Assembly (NCBI RefSeq): GCF_024971095.1
Contig: NZ_CP069717.1
Span: 930,001 to 994,000 of the forward strand
Source of the DNA: Microbacterium neungamense
GTDB taxonomy: Bacteria > Actinomycetota > Actinomycetes > Actinomycetales > Microbacteriaceae
Length of the DNA: 64,000 bases
Direction of reading: 5' to 3'
Positions 35,195 to 42,470 of this stretch are shown piece by piece; position 1 is the stretch's first letter; every line of letters starts with the position of its first letter. The notes under the pieces were generated by a model. That model saw only the letters and a list, made by a program, of their open reading frames with translations. It was not told where the DNA came from and ran no database searches. A program made the translations under genes and the position numbers.

Positions 35195-36277
35195 ATGCGT
35201 CGCGTCATCGTCCTCGGCTCCACCGGCTCCATCGGCACTCAGGCGCTGGACGTCATCCGCGCCAACCCGCGGCGATTCGAGCTGGTCGGCGTCGCCGCGG
35301 GCTCGAACGCCGAGCTGCTTGCGCAGCAGGCCGCGGAGTTCCGGGTGGAGAGCACCGCGCTCGGCGCCGCCGAGGCGGAGCAGCTGGTGCGCGACGTGGA
35401 GGCGGACGTCGTCCTGAACGCCATCACCGGCTCGATCGGGCTGGGGGCCACGCTCGCCGCGCTGAAGGCGGGGCGGACCCTCGCGCTGGCCAACAAGGAG
35501 TCGCTCATCGTCGGCGGCGAGCTGGTGCTCGCCGCCGCGGCCCCGGACCAGATCGTTCCGGTCGACTCGGAGCACTCCGCCCTCGCCCAGGCTCTGCGCT
35601 CCGGCGGTCCGGGTGAGGTCAGGCGGCTGATCGTCACGGCATCCGGCGGACCGTTCCGTGGACGCAGCCGGGAGGACATGGCGGATGTCACACCCGCCGA
35701 GGCGCTGGCGCACCCGACGTGGGACATGGGCCGCGTCATCACGACCAACTCGGCGACCCTGGTGAACAAGGGGCTGGAGGTGATCGAGGCGCACCTGCTG
35801 TTCGGCGTGCCCTACGACGACATCGAGGTGGTCGTGCACCCGCAGTCGATCGTGCACTCGATGGTCGAGTTCGTCGACGGGTCCACCATCGCCCAGGCGT
35901 CCCCGCCCGATATGCGGCTGCCGATCTCGCTCGGGCTGGACTGGCCGCACCGCGTCGGCGGCGTCGGACGCCCGCTGGACTGGCGGACGGCGACCAGTTG
36001 GACGTTCGAGCCCCTCGACGACGAGGCGTTCCCGGCGGTCGCGCTCGCGAAGGCGGTCGGGCGTGCCGGTGAGACGTTCCCGGCGGTGTACAACGCCGCC
36101 AACGAGCAGGCGGTGGACGCGTTCCACGAAGGTCGGCTGCCGTTCCTCGGCATCGTCGACACGATCCAGCGCGTGATCGACGCTCACGAGCCCCCCGAGA
36201 CGCTCACGATCGACACTCTGGCGGAGGCCGAGCGCTGGGCCCGCGCCAAGGCCGACGCCCTCATCGCCGCCTCCTGA
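35195..36277 (+). CDS. dxr: 1-deoxy-D-xylulose-5-phosphate reductoisomerase
   Basis: A 360-residue NADPH enzyme of the MEP isoprenoid pathway making 2-C-methyl-D-erythritol 4-phosphate. The NADPH site is [15 protein letters not shown]. Metal and substrate motifs are [26 protein letters not shown] and TASGGPFRG. ispG, two steps on in the same pathway, lies 5 kb downstream, with rseP between; this dxr-rseP-ispG order is typical of actinobacteria, here opened by two minus-strand genes. Confidence 0.97.
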
Positions 36278-36330
36278 CCCCCACGACCGATCCGATCCCC
36301 CGGATCCCCTCCCGGGGTCGGGGCGCGCTG

Positions 36331-37932
36331 TCAGTCGTCGTAGGGGACGGGCCAGCGCGGCTCGGGGACGGGCCAGCCGGCGTCGCGCAGGGCGCGGCGG
36401 GCGAGCTCGCGGGCGGAGTAGGGCGTGCGCACCCCGCGGATGTCGCGGTAGTCCTGGTGTCCGGGGCCGGCCCACAGGATCGCGTCGCCCTCGCCGACCA
36501 GGCCGACCGCGGCCACGATCGCCTCCTCGGGCGGGGAGTACTCGTGGATCTCGGCATCCGGACGCGCCCGCCGGGCGCCCTCGACGAGAGTCCTCCGGAT
36601 CGACGCCGGGTCCTCGAACCGCGGATGGTGGTCGGTGACCACCAGGATGTCGCTGCCCTCCACGGCCGTGCGGGCCATGTCGTACCGCTTGGTGGCGTCG
36701 CGGTCGCCGTCCGCGCCGAACAGCATCAGCACCTTGCCGGGCGTCACCCGGCGCACCGCGGCGAGCGTCTTCTCGAACGCGTCGGGGGAGTGCCCGAAGT
36801 CGACGTACACGGCCGGTCCCCGCTCGCCGGAGACGAACTCGGTCCGCCCGGGCAGGTACGCGCGGATGCCGCCGTCCCGCTCCAGTCCGCCGGCGATCCG
36901 CTCCCACGAGTAGCCGCCCTCGAGCAGCATCACGATCGCGAGCCCGGCGTTCGCGGCCATGTGCGGGCCGATCACCGGCACCGTCGTGGTCAGCCGGCCC
37001 TGCGGCCCGGCCAGGGTGAACACGGTGCCGTTCTGCCGCTCGTCGTCGATCGTGACCACCCAGTCGGCCGCGGCCGCGGCATCCGCGTCGGCGGCGATCG
37101 CCGGCGTGCCCACGGTGACCACGGGGATGCCGGCCTCGGCCACCACCCGCGCACCGGCCGGGGAGTCCAGGCACACCACGCCGCGGCGGGCGCGGTCCGG
37201 CTGGAACAGCGGCAGCTTCGCCCGGAAGTACTCCTCCATGTCGGCGTAGTCGTCGAGGTGGTCGTGCGACAGGTTGGTGAAGCCGGCGACGTCGAACACG
37301 ATCCCGTCCACGCGATGACGCGACAGCGCCTGTGCGCTCACCTCGACCGCCACCGCCTCCACCGCGCGCTCGCGCATCAAGGCCAGCAGCGCGTGCATCT
37401 CGGATGCCTCGGGCGTGGTCAGCCGCGACACGATCACCTGTCCCGCGATGTGCCGCTCCGCGGTGGACGACAGCCCGGTGACGACCCCGAGCTGATCGAG
37501 GATGCCCTCGAGCAGGTGCGACACGCTGGTCTTGCCGTTCGTGCCGGTGGTGCCGAACAGCAGCGGCAGCGGGTCGTCCGCGCCGGTGCCGTACACCCAG
37601 GCGCTCAGCGCGCCGAGGACCCCGCGGGGGTCGTCCACGACCACGATCGGCAGACCGGCGGATGCCGCGAGCTCGGCGCCGGCGGCATCCGTGATGATCG
37701 CGACGGCGCCCTTCTCGGCCGCGGTCCCCGCGAACTCCGCGCCGTGCCGGTTCACCCCCTGGATCGCCACGAACGCCTCCCCGGCCCGGAGGTCGGCGGT
37801 GGCGAGGGTGATCCCGCTGAGGTGGACGTCGGCGATGTCGCCGCGGACGTCACGGGCGAAGCGGTCGGCGAGCTCGGCCAGGGCGCGACGGGGTGGGTCG
37901 GCGGGGCGGAGCACAGGAGGAAGGTTGCTCAT
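36331..37932 (-). CDS. MurE-like UDP-MurNAc-peptide ligase with unusual specificity motif
   Basis: A 533-residue Mur ligase. The P-loop is GTTGTNGKTSV (residues 127-137). The central domain has TTPEASEMHALL and FTNLSHDHLDDY, and the C-terminal domain has YVDFGHSPDAFEKTL. It should add a diamino or other amino acid to UDP-MurNAc-L-Ala-D-Glu. At the usual DNPR motif of meso-DAP enzymes it reads DHHPR (residues 434-438). B-type peptidoglycan of Microbacteriaceae lacks DAP at position 3, so a different substrate is plausible. It lies outside any dcw cluster seen here, so it may be a second paralogue. Confidence 0.85.
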   Translation of the reverse strand: MSNLPPVLRPADPPRRALAELADRFARDVRGDIADVHLSGITLATADLRAGEAFVAIQGVNRHGAEFAGTAAEKGAVAIITDAAGAELAASAGLPIVVVDDPRGVLGALSAWVYGTGADDPLPLLFGTTGTNGKTSVSHLLEGILDQLGVVTGLSSTAERHIAGQVIVSRLTTPEASEMHALLALMRERAVEAVAVEVSAQALSRHRVDGIVFDVAGFTNLSHDHLDDYADMEEYFRAKLPLFQPDRARRGVVCLDSPAGARVVAEAGIPVVTVGTPAIAADADAAAAADWVVTIDDERQNGTVFTLAGPQGRLTTTVPVIGPHMAANAGLAIVMLLEGGYSWERIAGGLERDGGIRAYLPGRTEFVSGERGPAVYVDFGHSPDAFEKTLAAVRRVTPGKVLMLFGADGDRDATKRYDMARTAVEGSDILVVTDHHPRFEDPASIRRTLVEGARRARPDAEIHEYSPPEEAIVAAVGLVGEGDAILWAGPGHQDYRDIRGVRTPYSARELARRALRDAGWPVPEPRWPVPYDD

Positions 37933-37980
37933 GTCGCATCCATGTTCTCACGCGGTCATCGCGCGGCATGTGCGGGGCGT

Positions 37981-37986
37981 TAGCGT
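37981..37986 (+). promoter_or_regulatory. -10 element of leaderless rseP
   Basis: TAGCGT, 6 nt, then GTG 37993. Confidence 0.5.
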
Positions 37987-37992
37987 GGACGG

Positions 37993-39279
37993 GTGGAAAC
38001 CCTGCTGTATCTGGGCGGCATCCTGTTCATGCTCGTCGGTCTCGGCCTGTCCATCGGGCTGCACGAGATCGGGCACCTCGTGCCCGCGAAGCTGTTCGGC
38101 GTGCGGGTCGGCCAGTACATGATCGGGTTCGGCCCCCGGCTGTGGTCCCGGCGCATCGGCGAGACCGAGTACGGCGTGAAGGCGCTGCCGCTGGGCGGGT
38201 TCATCTCGATGTCGGGCATGTATCCGCCGTCGGACGTCTCCGGCCCCGCCAAGGGCGTCTTCCGCACCCTCGTGCAGGACGCCCGCACCGCGAACGACGA
38301 GACCATCGCGGACGGGGAGCAGCATCGCGTGTTCTACCGGCTGCCGGTGTGGAAGCGCATCGTGGTGATGCTCGGCGGGCCGCTGATGAACCTCGTCCTC
38401 GGCATCCTCGTCTTCACGGTCCTCGCCTCCGGGATCGGCATCCAGCAGGCCACGACGACCGTGGCCGCGGTCAGCGAGTGCGTGCTGCCGGCCGCGTCGG
38501 AGCCGACCGAGTGCGGCCCGGGCGACCCGCCCGCGCCGGCCGCCGAGGCCGGCATCCGTCCCGGCGACGAACTGGTGAGCGTCGGCGGCGCCCGCACCGA
38601 GACGTTCGCCGAGGCGTCGGCGATCATCCAGGCCTCGCCGGGCGAGCCGCTGCCGGTCGTCGTGCGCCGGGACGGCGAGGAGGTGCACCTGACGCTCACC
38701 CCGGTCACCGCCGAGCGGGAGTTCGCCGAGGACGGCAGGACCGTGGTCCGCGAGGTCGGCTACGCCGGCGTGTCCGCGCAGGTCGCGTACGTGGCGCAGC
38801 CGATCGGCACCGGCCCGGCGCTGGCACTGCAGCAGGCCGGCGCGGTGACCTCGATGATCGCCACCCTGCCGGTGCGGCTGTGGGACATCGGGGTCGCCCT
38901 GTTCACCGATCGCGAGCGCGACCCGAACGGCCCGCTCAGCGTCGTCGGGGTCGGCCGCATCGCCGGTGAGGTGGCGGCGACGGATGCCCCGGTGCTGAAC
39001 CGCCTGGTGGTGCTGCTGAACCTGCTCGGCGCGCTCAACATCGCGCTGTTCGTGTTCAACATGATCCCGCTGCTGCCGCTGGACGGCGGACACATCGTCG
39101 TCGCGCTGTGGGACGGTCTGCGCCGGGCGTGGGCGCGCCTCACCGGTCGCCCGGAGCCGGGGCCGGTGGATGCCACGCGCCTGGTGCCGCTGACGGTGAT
39201 CGTCGCCGCGGTGCTGATCGGGATGGGCGCGCTGCTGCTCATCGCCGACCTGGTGAAACCGGTCGATCTGTTCGGCTGA
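37993..39279 (+). CDS. M50-family site-2 protease (RseP/Rip1-like)
   Basis: A 428-residue intramembrane zinc metalloprotease. The zinc site is HEIGH in the first membrane helix (about residues 25-29), and the third ligand is in NMIPLLPLDGGHIV near the C-terminus. A PDZ domain lies between (about residues 180-240, AGIRPGDELVSVGG). Relatives cut anti-sigma factors; targets here are unknown. It sits between dxr and ispG as in other actinobacteria. Confidence 0.93.
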   Translation: METLLYLGGILFMLVGLGLSIGLHEIGHLVPAKLFGVRVGQYMIGFGPRLWSRRIGETEYGVKALPLGGFISMSGMYPPSDVSGPAKGVFRTLVQDARTANDETIADGEQHRVFYRLPVWKRIVVMLGGPLMNLVLGILVFTVLASGIGIQQATTTVAAVSECVLPAASEPTECGPGDPPAPAAEAGIRPGDELVSVGGARTETFAEASAIIQASPGEPLPVVVRRDGEEVHLTLTPVTAEREFAEDGRTVVREVGYAGVSAQVAYVAQPIGTGPALALQQAGAVTSMIATLPVRLWDIGVALFTDRERDPNGPLSVVGVGRIAGEVAATDAPVLNRLVVLLNLLGALNIALFVFNMIPLLPLDGGHIVVALWDGLRRAWARLTGRPEPGPVDATRLVPLTVIVAAVLIGMGALLLIADLVKPVDLFG

Positions 39280-39283
39280 CGGT

Positions 39284-41146
39284 TCAGCCGAGCGCGTGCG
39301 CGACCAGCCGGTGCAGGGTGCGGATGCCGTCGCGGGACAGGATCGACTCCAGGTGGCCCTGCACGCTCGCGAAGCGCTCGCCGCGGAGCGCGTAGACGTC
39401 GCCGGACCCGGCATCCGCCGACACCTCCGCGGGCCCCACAGCGCCGGTGCCCGGCGCGACGCGCGCCGTGAACGTGTTGTAGAAGCCGACCGACGCCTCC
39501 TCCTCGAACACGGGGACCGTCTTCTGCACACCCTGATGCGGCGCGTTCAGCGGCACCAGCGGGATGCCGAGCCGGTCGGCGAGGATCTGGTGGCTCAGGC
39601 ACACCGCGAGCAGCGGGCGCCCGGCATCCATCCGCCGCGCGACGACCTCCCGCATCCGCGCGATCCGCGGCGACGAGCCGTCCCGCGGGTCGCCCGGTCC
39701 GGGACCGGCCACGACGAGCTCGGCGGCGTCCACCGCGGCATCCGCCACCTCGTCCCACGGCGCGATCGTGACGTCCAGCCCGAGGTGGCGCAGCTGGTGC
39801 GCCAGCATGGTGGTGAACCGGTCCTCGGCGTCCACCACGAGTGCGCGGTGCCCCGCGAACGGACCCGTGCCCGGGGCCTCCTGCGGCTGCAGCCAGAAGT
39901 CGGCCAGCCTCGCGTTGCGGGAGGCGAGCAGCGCGGCGATCTCCGGGTCGTCGGCGAGCGGACGCGGCACGGTCGGGGCATCCGGGTCCTCCTGCGCCTC
40001 GGCGACGTGGTCGCGCTCGATCGCGCCGATCGCCCCCAGCACGCCCGCGGCCTTCCCGTGCGTCTCGCCGACCTCGCCGAGCGGGTCGGAGTGCCGCACC
40101 AGGGTCGCGCCGACCGGCACCCGCAGGCGCCCGCCGTCGATGTACACGGTGCGGATCAGGATGGGGGCGTCGAGGTCGTGTCCGCCGTGCGCGTTGGGGG
40201 TGAACAGCGCGGCGACGCCGGAGTAGTAGCCCCGCGGCTCCCGTTCGTGCCGGCGGATGACGGCGCACGCGTTCTGCATGGGGGAGCCGGTCACGGTCGG
40301 GGCGAACATGGTCTCGCGCAGGACGTCGCGCGGGTCGAGCCGGCTGCGGCCGCGGAGCATGTACTCGGTGTGGGTGAGGCGCGACATCTCCTTGAGGTGC
40401 GGTCCGGTGATGCGCCCGCCGTCCGAGCAGACGGCGCTCATCATCTTCAGCTCCTCGTCGACCACCATGAACAGCTCCTCGGTCTCCTTGGTGGAGGAGA
40501 GGAACTCCGTCAGCGACTCCTTGGTGGCGCCGCCGGCCGGATGCCGGAACGTGCCCGAGATCGGGTTCATGGTGACCACGCCGTCGCGGGCGACGACGTG
40601 CGCCTCCGGGCTCGCGCCGACCGCGATGTGACCCGGGGTGACCACCGCGAAGGTCCAGTAAGCGCCGCGCTCGTGCTCGAGCAGCGCGCGGAACCAGGTG
40701 AGCGCGGCGGTGCGGTCGTCCCCGTCGAAGGAGGCGGTGTAGTCGCGGCGGATGACGAAGTTCGCCCCCTCGCCGCGGCCGATCTCGTCGGCGATCACCC
40801 GCTCCACGATCCCGGCGTACTCCTCGTCGGACAGGTCGAAGCCGCCGTCGCGCAGCGGGATCGGCGCATCCGGCAGCTGGGCGAGCAGCTCTGCCGTCGG
40901 GATGTGCTCGTGCGTCGCGACGAGCAGGCAGCGCAGCGGGGTGCCGTCGTCCTGCGCCTCGAACCCGCGCTCGCGCACCTGCCGGTACGGCACCATCGCG
41001 AACACCTCGCGGGCGCTGCCGTCGTCGTCGAGCGGGATGTCGGCGAGCAGGTCGACGTCGACCACCTCGCCGGTGAGCAGCTCCACGGTGTCGGCGCCGT
41101 CGCGTGCGATGAGCACGTACGAGGTGCTGGGGTCGGCCAGCTTCAT
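39284..41146 (-). CDS. fused anthranilate synthase (TrpE-TrpG, PhzE-like)
   Basis: A 620-residue fusion. The N-terminal chorismate-binding domain has AYWTFAVVTPGHIAVGASPE, MNPISGTFRHP and APTVTGSPMQNACAVI. The C-terminal class I glutamine amidotransferase has its nucleophile in LAVCLSHQ (Cys516) and the His-Glu pair in SVQGHLESIL. It should make anthranilate (or an aminodeoxy product, as PhzE does) from chorismate and glutamine. ATG 41146 has AGGAG 5 nt upstream. The preceding 110 bp form a Trp-codon attenuator, which argues for tryptophan synthesis. Confidence 0.9.
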   Translation of the reverse strand: MKLADPSTSYVLIARDGADTVELLTGEVVDVDLLADIPLDDDGSAREVFAMVPYRQVRERGFEAQDDGTPLRCLLVATHEHIPTAELLAQLPDAPIPLRDGGFDLSDEEYAGIVERVIADEIGRGEGANFVIRRDYTASFDGDDRTAALTWFRALLEHERGAYWTFAVVTPGHIAVGASPEAHVVARDGVVTMNPISGTFRHPAGGATKESLTEFLSSTKETEELFMVVDEELKMMSAVCSDGGRITGPHLKEMSRLTHTEYMLRGRSRLDPRDVLRETMFAPTVTGSPMQNACAVIRRHEREPRGYYSGVAALFTPNAHGGHDLDAPILIRTVYIDGGRLRVPVGATLVRHSDPLGEVGETHGKAAGVLGAIGAIERDHVAEAQEDPDAPTVPRPLADDPEIAALLASRNARLADFWLQPQEAPGTGPFAGHRALVVDAEDRFTTMLAHQLRHLGLDVTIAPWDEVADAAVDAAELVVAGPGPGDPRDGSSPRIARMREVVARRMDAGRPLLAVCLSHQILADRLGIPLVPLNAPHQGVQKTVPVFEEEASVGFYNTFTARVAPGTGAVGPAEVSADAGSGDVYALRGERFASVQGHLESILSRDGIRTLHRLVAHALG

Positions 41147-41175
41147 GGTTCTCCTGGATTCCGGGCGGCCAGACG

Positions 41176-41232
41176 AAAAGACCGCCCTGGTGGGCGGTCT
41201 GTGAGTACGCGAACACACCGCCTAGACGGCGG
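41176..41232 (-). promoter_or_regulatory. tryptophan attenuator (terminator and antiterminator stems)
   Basis: Reading the minus strand: segment 1 CCGCC (41232-41228) pairs with segment 2 GGCGG (41222-41218). Segment 2 GGCGGT (41222-41217) can instead pair with segment 3 ACCGCC (41198-41193). Segment 3 AGACCGCCC (41200-41192) pairs with segment 4 GGGCGGTCT (41187-41179), followed by TTT, as a terminator. Segment 1 overlaps the leader codons just after the two Trp codons. A ribosome stalled there would free segment 2 to block the terminator. Confidence 0.85.
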
Positions 41233-41254
41233 GCCACCATGCGGGGACGTTCAC
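41222..41254 (-). CDS. trp leader peptide
   Basis: GTG 41254 opens MNVPAWWPAV (10 residues) and stops at TAG 41222. The tandem Trp codons (41239-41234) stand immediately before segment 1 of the attenuator. The peptide senses charged tRNA-Trp; no other role is expected. The ribosome site (AGGCGC) is weak. It lies about 75 bp before the fused anthranilate synthase ATG. Confidence 0.8.
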   Translation of the reverse strand: MNVPAWWPAV

Positions 41255-41306
41255 GCGCCTGAAACTACCACATCGGGGCACCCAGCCTCCGTCGATCCTG
41301 GCGTCG

Positions 41307-41312
41307 TAGGCT
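41307..41312 (+). promoter_or_regulatory. -10 element of leaderless ispG
   Basis: TAGGCT, 6 nt, then GTG 41319. Its region overlaps that of the divergent trp leader. Confidence 0.55.
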
Positions 41313-41318
41313 TGAGGC

Positions 41319-42470
41319 GTGCCAGCAGTGAACCTTGGGATGCCGCGCGTCCCCGACGTCCTCGCCCCGCGTCGCAAGTCCCGCCAGATCCGGGTCGGCA
41401 AGGTGCTCGTCGGCGGTGACGCGCCTGTCAGTGTGCAGTCGATGACCACGACGAAGACCACCGACATCAACGGCACGCTGCAGCAGATCGCCGAGCTGAC
41501 GGCATCCGGCTGCGAGATCGTGCGCGTCGCCGTGCCGTCTCAGGACGACGCCGACGTGCTGCACATCATCGCGAAGAAGAGCCAGATCCCGGTCATCGCC
41601 GACATCCACTTCCAGCCGAAGTACGTCTTCCAGGCCATCGACGCCGGCTGCGCGGGCGTGCGCGTGAACCCCGGCAACATCCGCAAGTTCGACGACCAGG
41701 TGGGCGCGATCGCGAAGGCGGCCGCCGCCGCGGGCGTGTCGCTGCGGATCGGCGTGAACGCCGGCTCGCTGGATCGCCGCCTGCTCGAGAAGTACGGCAA
41801 GGCCACGCCGGAGGCGCTCGTGGAGAGCGCCGTGTGGGAGGCGTCGCTGTTCGAGGAGCACGACTTCCACGATTTCAAGATCTCGGTCAAGCACAACGAC
41901 CCCGTGGTGATGGTGAAGGCCTATCGGATGCTCGCCGAGCGCGGCGACTGGCCGCTGCACCTGGGCGTCACCGAGGCAGGCCCCGCGTTCCAGGGCACGA
42001 TCAAGAGCGCCACCGCGTTCGGCATCCTGCTGGGCGAGGGCATCGGCGACACCATCCGCGTCTCCCTCTCCGCCCCGCCCGCGGAGGAGGTCAAGGTCGG
42101 CCATCAGATCCTGCAGTCGCTGAACCTCCGAGAGCGCAAGCTCGAGATCGTGTCGTGCCCGTCCTGCGGTCGCGCGCAGGTGGACGTCTACTCGCTCGCC
42201 GACAGCGTGACCGAGGGGCTGAAGGACATGACCGTGCCGCTGCGCGTCGCGGTGATGGGCTGCGTCGTGAACGGTCCCGGCGAGGCTCGCGAGGCCGACC
42301 TGGGTGTCGCCTCCGGCAACGGCAAGGGCCAGATCTTCGTGAAGGGCGAGGTCATCAAGACCGTGCCCGAGGCCGAGATCGTGCCGACGCTGATCGAGGA
42401 GGCGAACCGGATCGCCGCCGAGATGGGTCCGGACGCGCCCATCGGCACCGCCCAGGTCGTCACGGCCTAA
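41319..42470 (+). CDS. ispG: 4-hydroxy-3-methylbut-2-enyl diphosphate synthase
   Basis: A 383-residue [4Fe-4S] enzyme of the MEP pathway, converting MEcPP to HMBPP. The TIM-barrel start has [14 protein letters not shown]. The cluster cysteines are in SCPSCGR and [12 protein letters not shown], where the glutamate ligand also lies. GTG 41319 is supported by the -10 spacing. Confidence 0.97.

Follow-up and report, generated by a model that had tools for sequence, protein, structure and literature searches.

The minus strand from 41254 to 41176 of the window (the whole 64,000-nucleotide stretch of Microbacterium neungamense DNA that was analyzed) carries a real, conserved trp attenuator. With a probability of about 0.9, this leader is a ribosome-mediated tryptophan transcription attenuator controlling a PhzE-type TrpE-TrpG fusion, which is probably the only anthranilate synthase of the cell.

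Anatomy of the Leader and Its Gene

The leader peptide is read on the minus strand as GTG AAC GTC CCC GCA TGG TGG CCC GCC GTC TAG (41254-41222), with its Trp codons clustered in tandem. An intrinsic terminator follows, consisting of a 9-bp stem and a short U run. The features are listed in Table 1. A sequence-only reading of this DNA had described a GTG-started decapeptide with two adjacent Trp codons, and its coordinates are correct to the base; segments 1-4 and the TTT also lie where that reading placed them. Within segment 3, the part that pairs with segment 2 is ACCGCC at 41198-41193.

Table 1. Features of the attenuator and of the gene behind it
Feature	Positions	Strand	Basis
Putative -10 box of leader promoter, TAGTTT, 7 bases 5' of leader GTG	41262..41267	-	motif and spacing
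Helix 0 (basal), 5' strand GTGAAC, codons 1-2, partner 41214-41209	41249..41254	-	folding, swap test
Leader peptide ORF, GTG to TAG, MNVPAWWPAV, 10 amino acids	41222..41254	-	sequence reading
Tandem Trp codons 6 and 7, sensor	41234..41239	-	invariant across 13 rows of alignment A1
Segment 1, CCGCC	41228..41232	-	sequence and folding
Segment 2, GGCGGT	41217..41222	-	sequence and folding
Helix 0 (basal), 3' strand GTTCGC	41209..41214	-	folding, swap test
Segment 3, terminator arm AGACCGCCC	41192..41200	-	sequence and folding
Segment 4, GGGCGGTCT, 9-bp terminator with segment 3	41179..41187	-	sequence and folding
Short U run, TTT, behind terminator	41176..41178	-	sequence
Shine-Dalgarno-like AGGAG of fusion gene	41151..41155	-	sequence
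PhzE-type TrpE-TrpG fusion, 620 amino acids, regulated gene	39284..41146 (stop included)	-	domain and structure matches

The frame of the fusion begins at 41218 in the ORF list; the putative start is taken to be the ATG at 41146, behind the AGGAG. Its product combines a chorismate-binding domain (PF00425) with a glutaminase domain (PF00117). Cys-516 and Glu-600 are invariant in alignment A2 of the fusion and His-598 is nearly so; we take these three residues to be the catalytic triad. The named relatives closest to the fusion are from Microbacterium, both among the best 80 of 568 relatives and in the tree described below. Over window positions 35195-42470, the fusion is flanked by a site-2-protease-like gene and ispG and is encoded on the opposite strand; a dxr-like gene lies farther along. 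Between the starts of the leader and of ispG there are 64 bases.

Conservation of the Leader

The fusion was found in 14 of 120 family genomes, the window's own included; the match in one of the 14 carriers (G053) spans residues 9-318 only. An in-frame TGG TGG leader lies at most 330 bases upstream of the match in 13 of the 14. In the 1.4-Mb genome G027 the fusion (locus L022) likewise sits divergently beside ispG, but no WW leader was found there. A scan of named genomes covered the best 80 of 568 relatives, with at least 593 stretches matching; all 80 are actinobacterial by title and most are Microbacterium. Of these 80 loci, 73 are preceded by a WW leader whose -10 box stands 6-7 bases from the start codon. 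The other seven are two cut by contig ends (L147 and L148), four from Ornithinimicrobium/Serinicoccus (L179-L181 and L187), in which the fusion is kept and no WW leader was found, and one from a Streptomyces MAG (L192). The Trp codons are thus conserved in related genomes, as the sequence-only reading had anticipated.

A model of the leader (R1) was built from the 13 family leaders, the window's own among them. In the window's own 2.55-Mb genome R1 has a single match with an E-value of 0.01 or lower, at 72.4 bits and E 2e-16, a score that is not independent. Matches at this threshold occur in 107 of 398 family genomes, and their scores fall into a high group and a separate low tail, antisense hits being part of the latter. 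The 398 genomes contain 56 places scoring at least 33 bits; the gene that follows is the fusion in 49 cases, trpB in 6, and a methyltransferase-like ORF in 1. Hits below 31 bits, several of them antisense to true hits, were rejected as noise; for the best three of these (L109-L111), tblastn detected neither the fusion nor TrpE within roughly 2.5 kb.

At the six trpB loci (L097, L098, L102, L105, L107, and L108, in genera g15, g21, and g74), a leader reading WWTA, WWAA, or WWHA up to the stop codon, with a terminator, precedes the gene. The ORF behind it scores over the TIGR00263 cut-off in all six. The g21 and g74 genomes of this group (G211, G161, and G136) have no TrpE above 276 bits, G161 having a near full-length 251-bit match, and the three g15 genomes have TrpE at 511-518 bits. 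Attenuated indole salvage behind the trpB leaders is a possibility. Locus L101 (G089:C1:3691883-3691984, minus strand) has the WW leader MHMTTAWWPTFSVG, read up to its stop codon, with hairpins and a U run, before the methyltransferase-like ORF (PF08241). In the M. neungamense genome no WW leader was found before trpB or trpD; two small WW ORFs lie elsewhere or on the other strand.

Promoter and Predicted Leaderless Start

The -10 box is absent from the sequence-only reading and new in this analysis. In all 13 leadered fusion loci of the family, the sole TANNNT within 45 bases upstream lies 6-7 bases before the leader start, the start having been picked by us where several candidates existed. 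The count of 73 among the 80 best named loci favored starts with a -10 box and was for that reason repeated with a blind start choice, the nearest in-frame ATG or GTG at least 3 codons before WW being used. The box then stood at 6-7 nt in 67 of the 73 WW leaders, against a background of 443 of 63,985 (0.7%) for all ATG and GTG in the fetched DNA.

According to the available part of the S. lividans mapping study, that organism has TAnnnT as its -10 box, with a mean distance of 6.3 bases to the start, and its trpL1, upstream of a single trpE, is leaderless (PMC8079986). Because of this mapping and of the box 6-7 bases before the start codon, translation of the M. neungamense leader peptide probably starts at the bare 5' end of a leaderless RNA, the position of the box being compatible with a predicted transcription start at 41254 and no 5' UTR. 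Leaderless short ORFs were reportedly described as attenuators in mycobacteria by Canestrari in 2020.

Alternative Structures and Covariation

The computed pairing energies are -10.0 kcal/mol for 1:2, -14.0 kcal/mol for the 2:3 hairpin, and -18.4 kcal/mol for 3:4. With the ribosome masked so that Trp6 or Trp7 is in the A site, the best fold of an RNA ending at segment 3 is 2:3 (-14.2 kcal/mol). With the ribosome masked at the stop codon, the 2:3 antiterminator is lost (-1.9), and 3:4 appears once segment 4 has been made. Unmasked RNA extending through segment 4 forms a 5' hairpin and the 3:4 terminator. These states bear out two earlier claims, namely that the three pairings are mutually exclusive and that a ribosome stalled on Trp masks segment 1; together with the anatomy they also support the view that classic enterobacterial-type logic operates in an actinobacterium. 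Once segment 4 is present, 3:4 belongs to the best fold in 4 of 4 ribosome states, the stall at the Trp codons included, and the decision would therefore be made during transcription under kinetic control. A kinetic, co-transcriptional decision is usual in known attenuators. The leader folds better than chance (z -3.0), none of 200 shuffles being equally good.

An extra 5' helix that the sequence-only reading had not described pairs the first codons with the stretch behind segment 2. In our reading of the single best folds, this basal helix 0 is present in 11 of the 13 family leaders. It is missing from the best folds of L014 and of the 95-base L001, and other folds of L001 itself show it.

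Covariation was assessed by a swap test, in which real strand pairs were compared with swapped pairs among 75 non-redundant leaders over 5000 permutations. The set started from 116 unique leaders, 7 of which were excluded because their stop codon lay more than 18 bases beyond the first Trp codon; the remaining 109 clustered to 75, and leaders before trpB and before the methyltransferase-like ORF were taken in. In the 32-leader alignment A3 the register of segments 1 and 2 is not constant across species, and for this reason the swap test was preferred to a pair count there. For helix 0 the mean energy is -12.45 kcal/mol as against -9.69 kcal/mol for swapped pairs (z -10.2, 0 of 5000 permutations), and for hairpin 1:2 the z-score is -6.2 (0 of 5000). 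No signal was obtained for 2:3 among the 75 leaders (z 0.0), because this pairing hardly varies. Two control stretches gave z -2.3 (57 of 5000) and 0.3; the former value indicates that the swap test does not fully remove kinship. The signal is broad, not absolute, the leader's own pair ranking in the top 10% of swaps for helix 0 in 23 of 75 leaders and for 1:2 in 12 of 75.

The strands of helix 0 are formed by different sequences in different genera with the pairing kept, and in the swap test the codons before WW vary while their pairing persists. In the 13-row alignment A1, two pairs of 3:4 have two-sided changes; 1:2 has no two-sided change there, and 4 of its 5 pairs never vary. The compensatory changes that the sequence-only reading expected in its three stems are thus found for 1:2 by the swap test and for 3:4 in A1, and 2:3, which hardly varies, is uninformative; helix 0 also shows such changes. 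Leaders from two Kutzneria species (L188 and L189) differ jointly in segments 1 and 2, CCGTC/GACGG versus CCGCC/GGCGG, and segment 3 is CCGTC in both.

In the mechanism that we propose, transcription would begin at the leader start codon and a ribosome would load directly onto the end of the RNA. At low charged tRNA-Trp the ribosome would stall at codons 6-7 and cover segment 1, so that 2:3 could pair and RNA polymerase would read into the fusion. With enough tryptophan, a ribosome at the stop codon would cover segment 2, and 3:4 would terminate transcription at about 41176. Were no ribosome loaded, helix 0 and 1:2 would form, segment 3 would be free, and transcription would stop as well.

Tryptophan Synthesis in the Genome

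The M. neungamense genome is a single contig and 99.97% complete. A profile search detected three chorismate-binding ORFs at E 0.01 or better, namely the fusion, PabB (337.5 bits against a cut-off of 328.4), and isochorismate synthase (240.4 bits against 224.75), and no TrpE besides the fusion. Elsewhere the genome has trpD and trpB, and trpC was recognized by eye beside trpB. At the relatives' 30 best-scoring TrpE loci, hisI lies upstream in 29 and the Trp-operon membrane gene downstream in 29, with both present in 28. In M. neungamense the end of the hisI frame is the start of the Trp-operon membrane gene, with no trpE between them. This genome content strengthens the assignment of the fusion to tryptophan synthesis, which had been made from the sequence alone. 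The phenazine marker PF03284 had no match in the genome; the control was also silent in 14 of 14 genomes, so this result is uninformative.

A canonical TrpE was counted as present at 345 bits or more to TIGR00564. It is missing from 7 of the 14 fusion carriers and from 5 of the 106 non-carriers (Fisher p 3e-5, in a set of 120 genomes whose related members are not independent), and the remaining 7 carriers have both proteins. With the 324.5-bit partial match of G022 counted as missing too, the figure for non-carriers is 6 of 106 (p 7e-5). The cut is thin, the lowest TrpE counted as present scoring 345.6 bits (G114) and the second hit of G115 scoring 333.5; among the TrpE-less non-carriers, G061 is 75% complete and G073 has a near full-length 256-bit match.

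Fusions in Large Genomes

We picked 12 large genomes of the same class, 11 of genus g91 and 1 of g94, which we take to be Streptomyces-like and Micromonospora-like from their leaders and the tree. All 12 have the fusion, with 18 matches in total, of which 16 are reported as loci, and a leader precedes it at 12 of the 16 loci, one per genome. The leadered fusions are 52-57% identical to that of the window. A Trp triplet is present in 11 of the 12 leaders, 8 of which end WWWTA(H/P)PAA(H/R). The leader nearest to the published S. lividans MFAHSTRNWWWTAHPAAH is MFAHSTQNWWWTAHPAAH. A back-translated S. lividans trpL1 pattern gave no matches in 396 phylum genomes and was discarded as too strict, since close variants occur in the same draw.

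Of the loci that lack a leader in the large genomes, L198, L199, and L206 lie behind a PF00857 isochorismatase and L212 lies near a class-II DAHP synthase. L192 of the Streptomyces MAG, too, lies behind an isochorismatase and has no Trp leader. Genomes G744, G504, and G761 have a leadered copy as well (L209, L210, and L211). In a tree of 60 rows chosen by us, the four isochorismatase-linked copies (L192, L198, L199, and L206) form one clade (SH-aLRT 99), and the branch separating these copies plus L212 from all other rows has weak support (SH-aLRT 32). The leader label changes 3 times on the tree as against 7.7 times in shuffles, with 0 of 500 shuffles as low.

Alternative Explanations

The attenuator could be real and the fusion nevertheless make ADIC, like PhzE, for a phenazine-like or other product, being merely co-regulated with tryptophan supply. 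The nearest solved structure is indeed PhzE (3r74, 537.6 bits), and no cut-off was reached among the 25 best NCBIfam models listed, the best anthranilate synthase models scoring 154.7 and 137.5 bits, far under their cut-offs of 645 and 739. Why anthranilate synthases finish the reaction and PhzE stops before anthranilate is invisible in sequence, according to the accessible text of PMC5958127. The attenuator itself tells what the fusion gene answers to, not whether anthranilate or ADIC is released. The fused enzyme of S. venezuelae, however, is reportedly termed an anthranilate synthase (Ashenafi 2015). A near-complete genome with trpD and trpB in which no other TrpE was detected also speaks against an ADIC synthase, as does the separation of the 12 leadered copies from the leader-free, isochorismatase-linked clade. 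We therefore consider ADIC formation unlikely and anthranilate the probable product.

Even less probable is control by translation, in which the helices would govern ribosome access to the fusion gene and not termination. Among the related loci the terminator is broken in L019 and U-poor in L020, which is in favor of such control, but in the window the 3:4 hairpin does not include the AGGAG at 41155-41151 and is followed by a U run. Hairpins are common in a GC-rich genome, and they could form an ordinary terminator behind a chance small WW ORF, with expression independent of tryptophan. We regard this as the least probable explanation of all, since many genera retain the whole set of in-frame tandem Trp codons, start codon, spacing of the -10 box, and hairpins, and since variation in the codons before WW leaves the pairing intact. 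Tryptophan-dependent transcription attenuation of an anthranilate synthase is thus our preferred reading.

A broader proposal is offered tentatively, and we would not wager on it at even odds. The leader may be a default-off switch that reads both ribosome loading on a bare 5' end and the supply of Trp-tRNA, with its Trp codons caged in the 5' arm and with helix 0 re-evolved by genus. It might stay with the gene through Actinomycetota and mark the PhzE-type fusions that took over tryptophan synthesis, trpE having been replaced in several lineages. The leader suggests itself as a candidate sequence criterion for telling tryptophan-dedicated PhzE-type fusions from antibiotic-cluster ones, which enzyme sequence alone is said to be unable to separate in the portion of PMC5958127 available. 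The data also suggest that a PhzE-type fusion has taken the place of TrpE in the window's own genome and in six other carriers among 120, and that the attenuator is widespread; no Rfam model recognized it at cut-off. The predicted leaderless start, the basal helix, and the way in which the leader tracks the role of PhzE-type fusions deserve further study.

Comparison with Known Systems

The arrangement is not a first; it adds a Microbacteriaceae example to a kind of actinobacterial trp attenuator previously reported for Streptomyces. Lin is said to have described in 1998 a trp attenuator of S. venezuelae that controls a fused gene. In the available part of the S. lividans paper, the gene behind trpL1 is a single trpE for anthranilate synthase (PMC8079986). 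Because near-copies of its leader precede fusions in Streptomyces-like genomes, the S. lividans trpE is presumably fused as well. As far as the accessible text on these systems goes, the attenuator of the window has in common with S. lividans trpL1-trpE and with S. venezuelae a Trp-rich leader peptide, a terminator, and a single stand-alone gene; like trpL1, it is predicted to be leaderless. It differs in its leader of 10 amino acids with two Trp near the stop and in hairpin 1:2, which begins one base behind the Trp codons; leaders of the Streptomyces type contain three Trp and have a longer tail (WWWTAHPAAH).

Leifsonia xyli belongs to the Microbacteriaceae. It was in the set of Seliverstov (2005), the available part of which names trp attenuators for Corynebacterium and Streptomyces and not for Leifsonia xyli; these predictions for Actinobacteria share with the window leader two or three UGG codons, a GC-rich terminator, and classical attenuation (PMC1262725). 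We found no paper on tryptophan leader-peptide attenuation in Microbacterium, in a search whose reach into subscription journals was poor.

The enterobacterial Trp_leader (RF00513) has the same logic and aligned over the same parts of the window leader. Its score of 14.9 bits (E 1.5) lies far under the cut-off of 41 and is second by bits among six sub-threshold Rfam matches to the leader stretch. No Rfam family reached its cut-off on the whole 64-kb window, and only a tRNA did so on 6 related loci. Compared with the enterobacterial leader, that of the window is shorter and has its -10 box right before the start codon. With the ADIC synthases PhzE and Lim6 the window's fusion has the fused architecture in common, but its neighbors are a protease-like gene and ispG instead of an isochorismatase gene in front, and a Trp leader precedes it.
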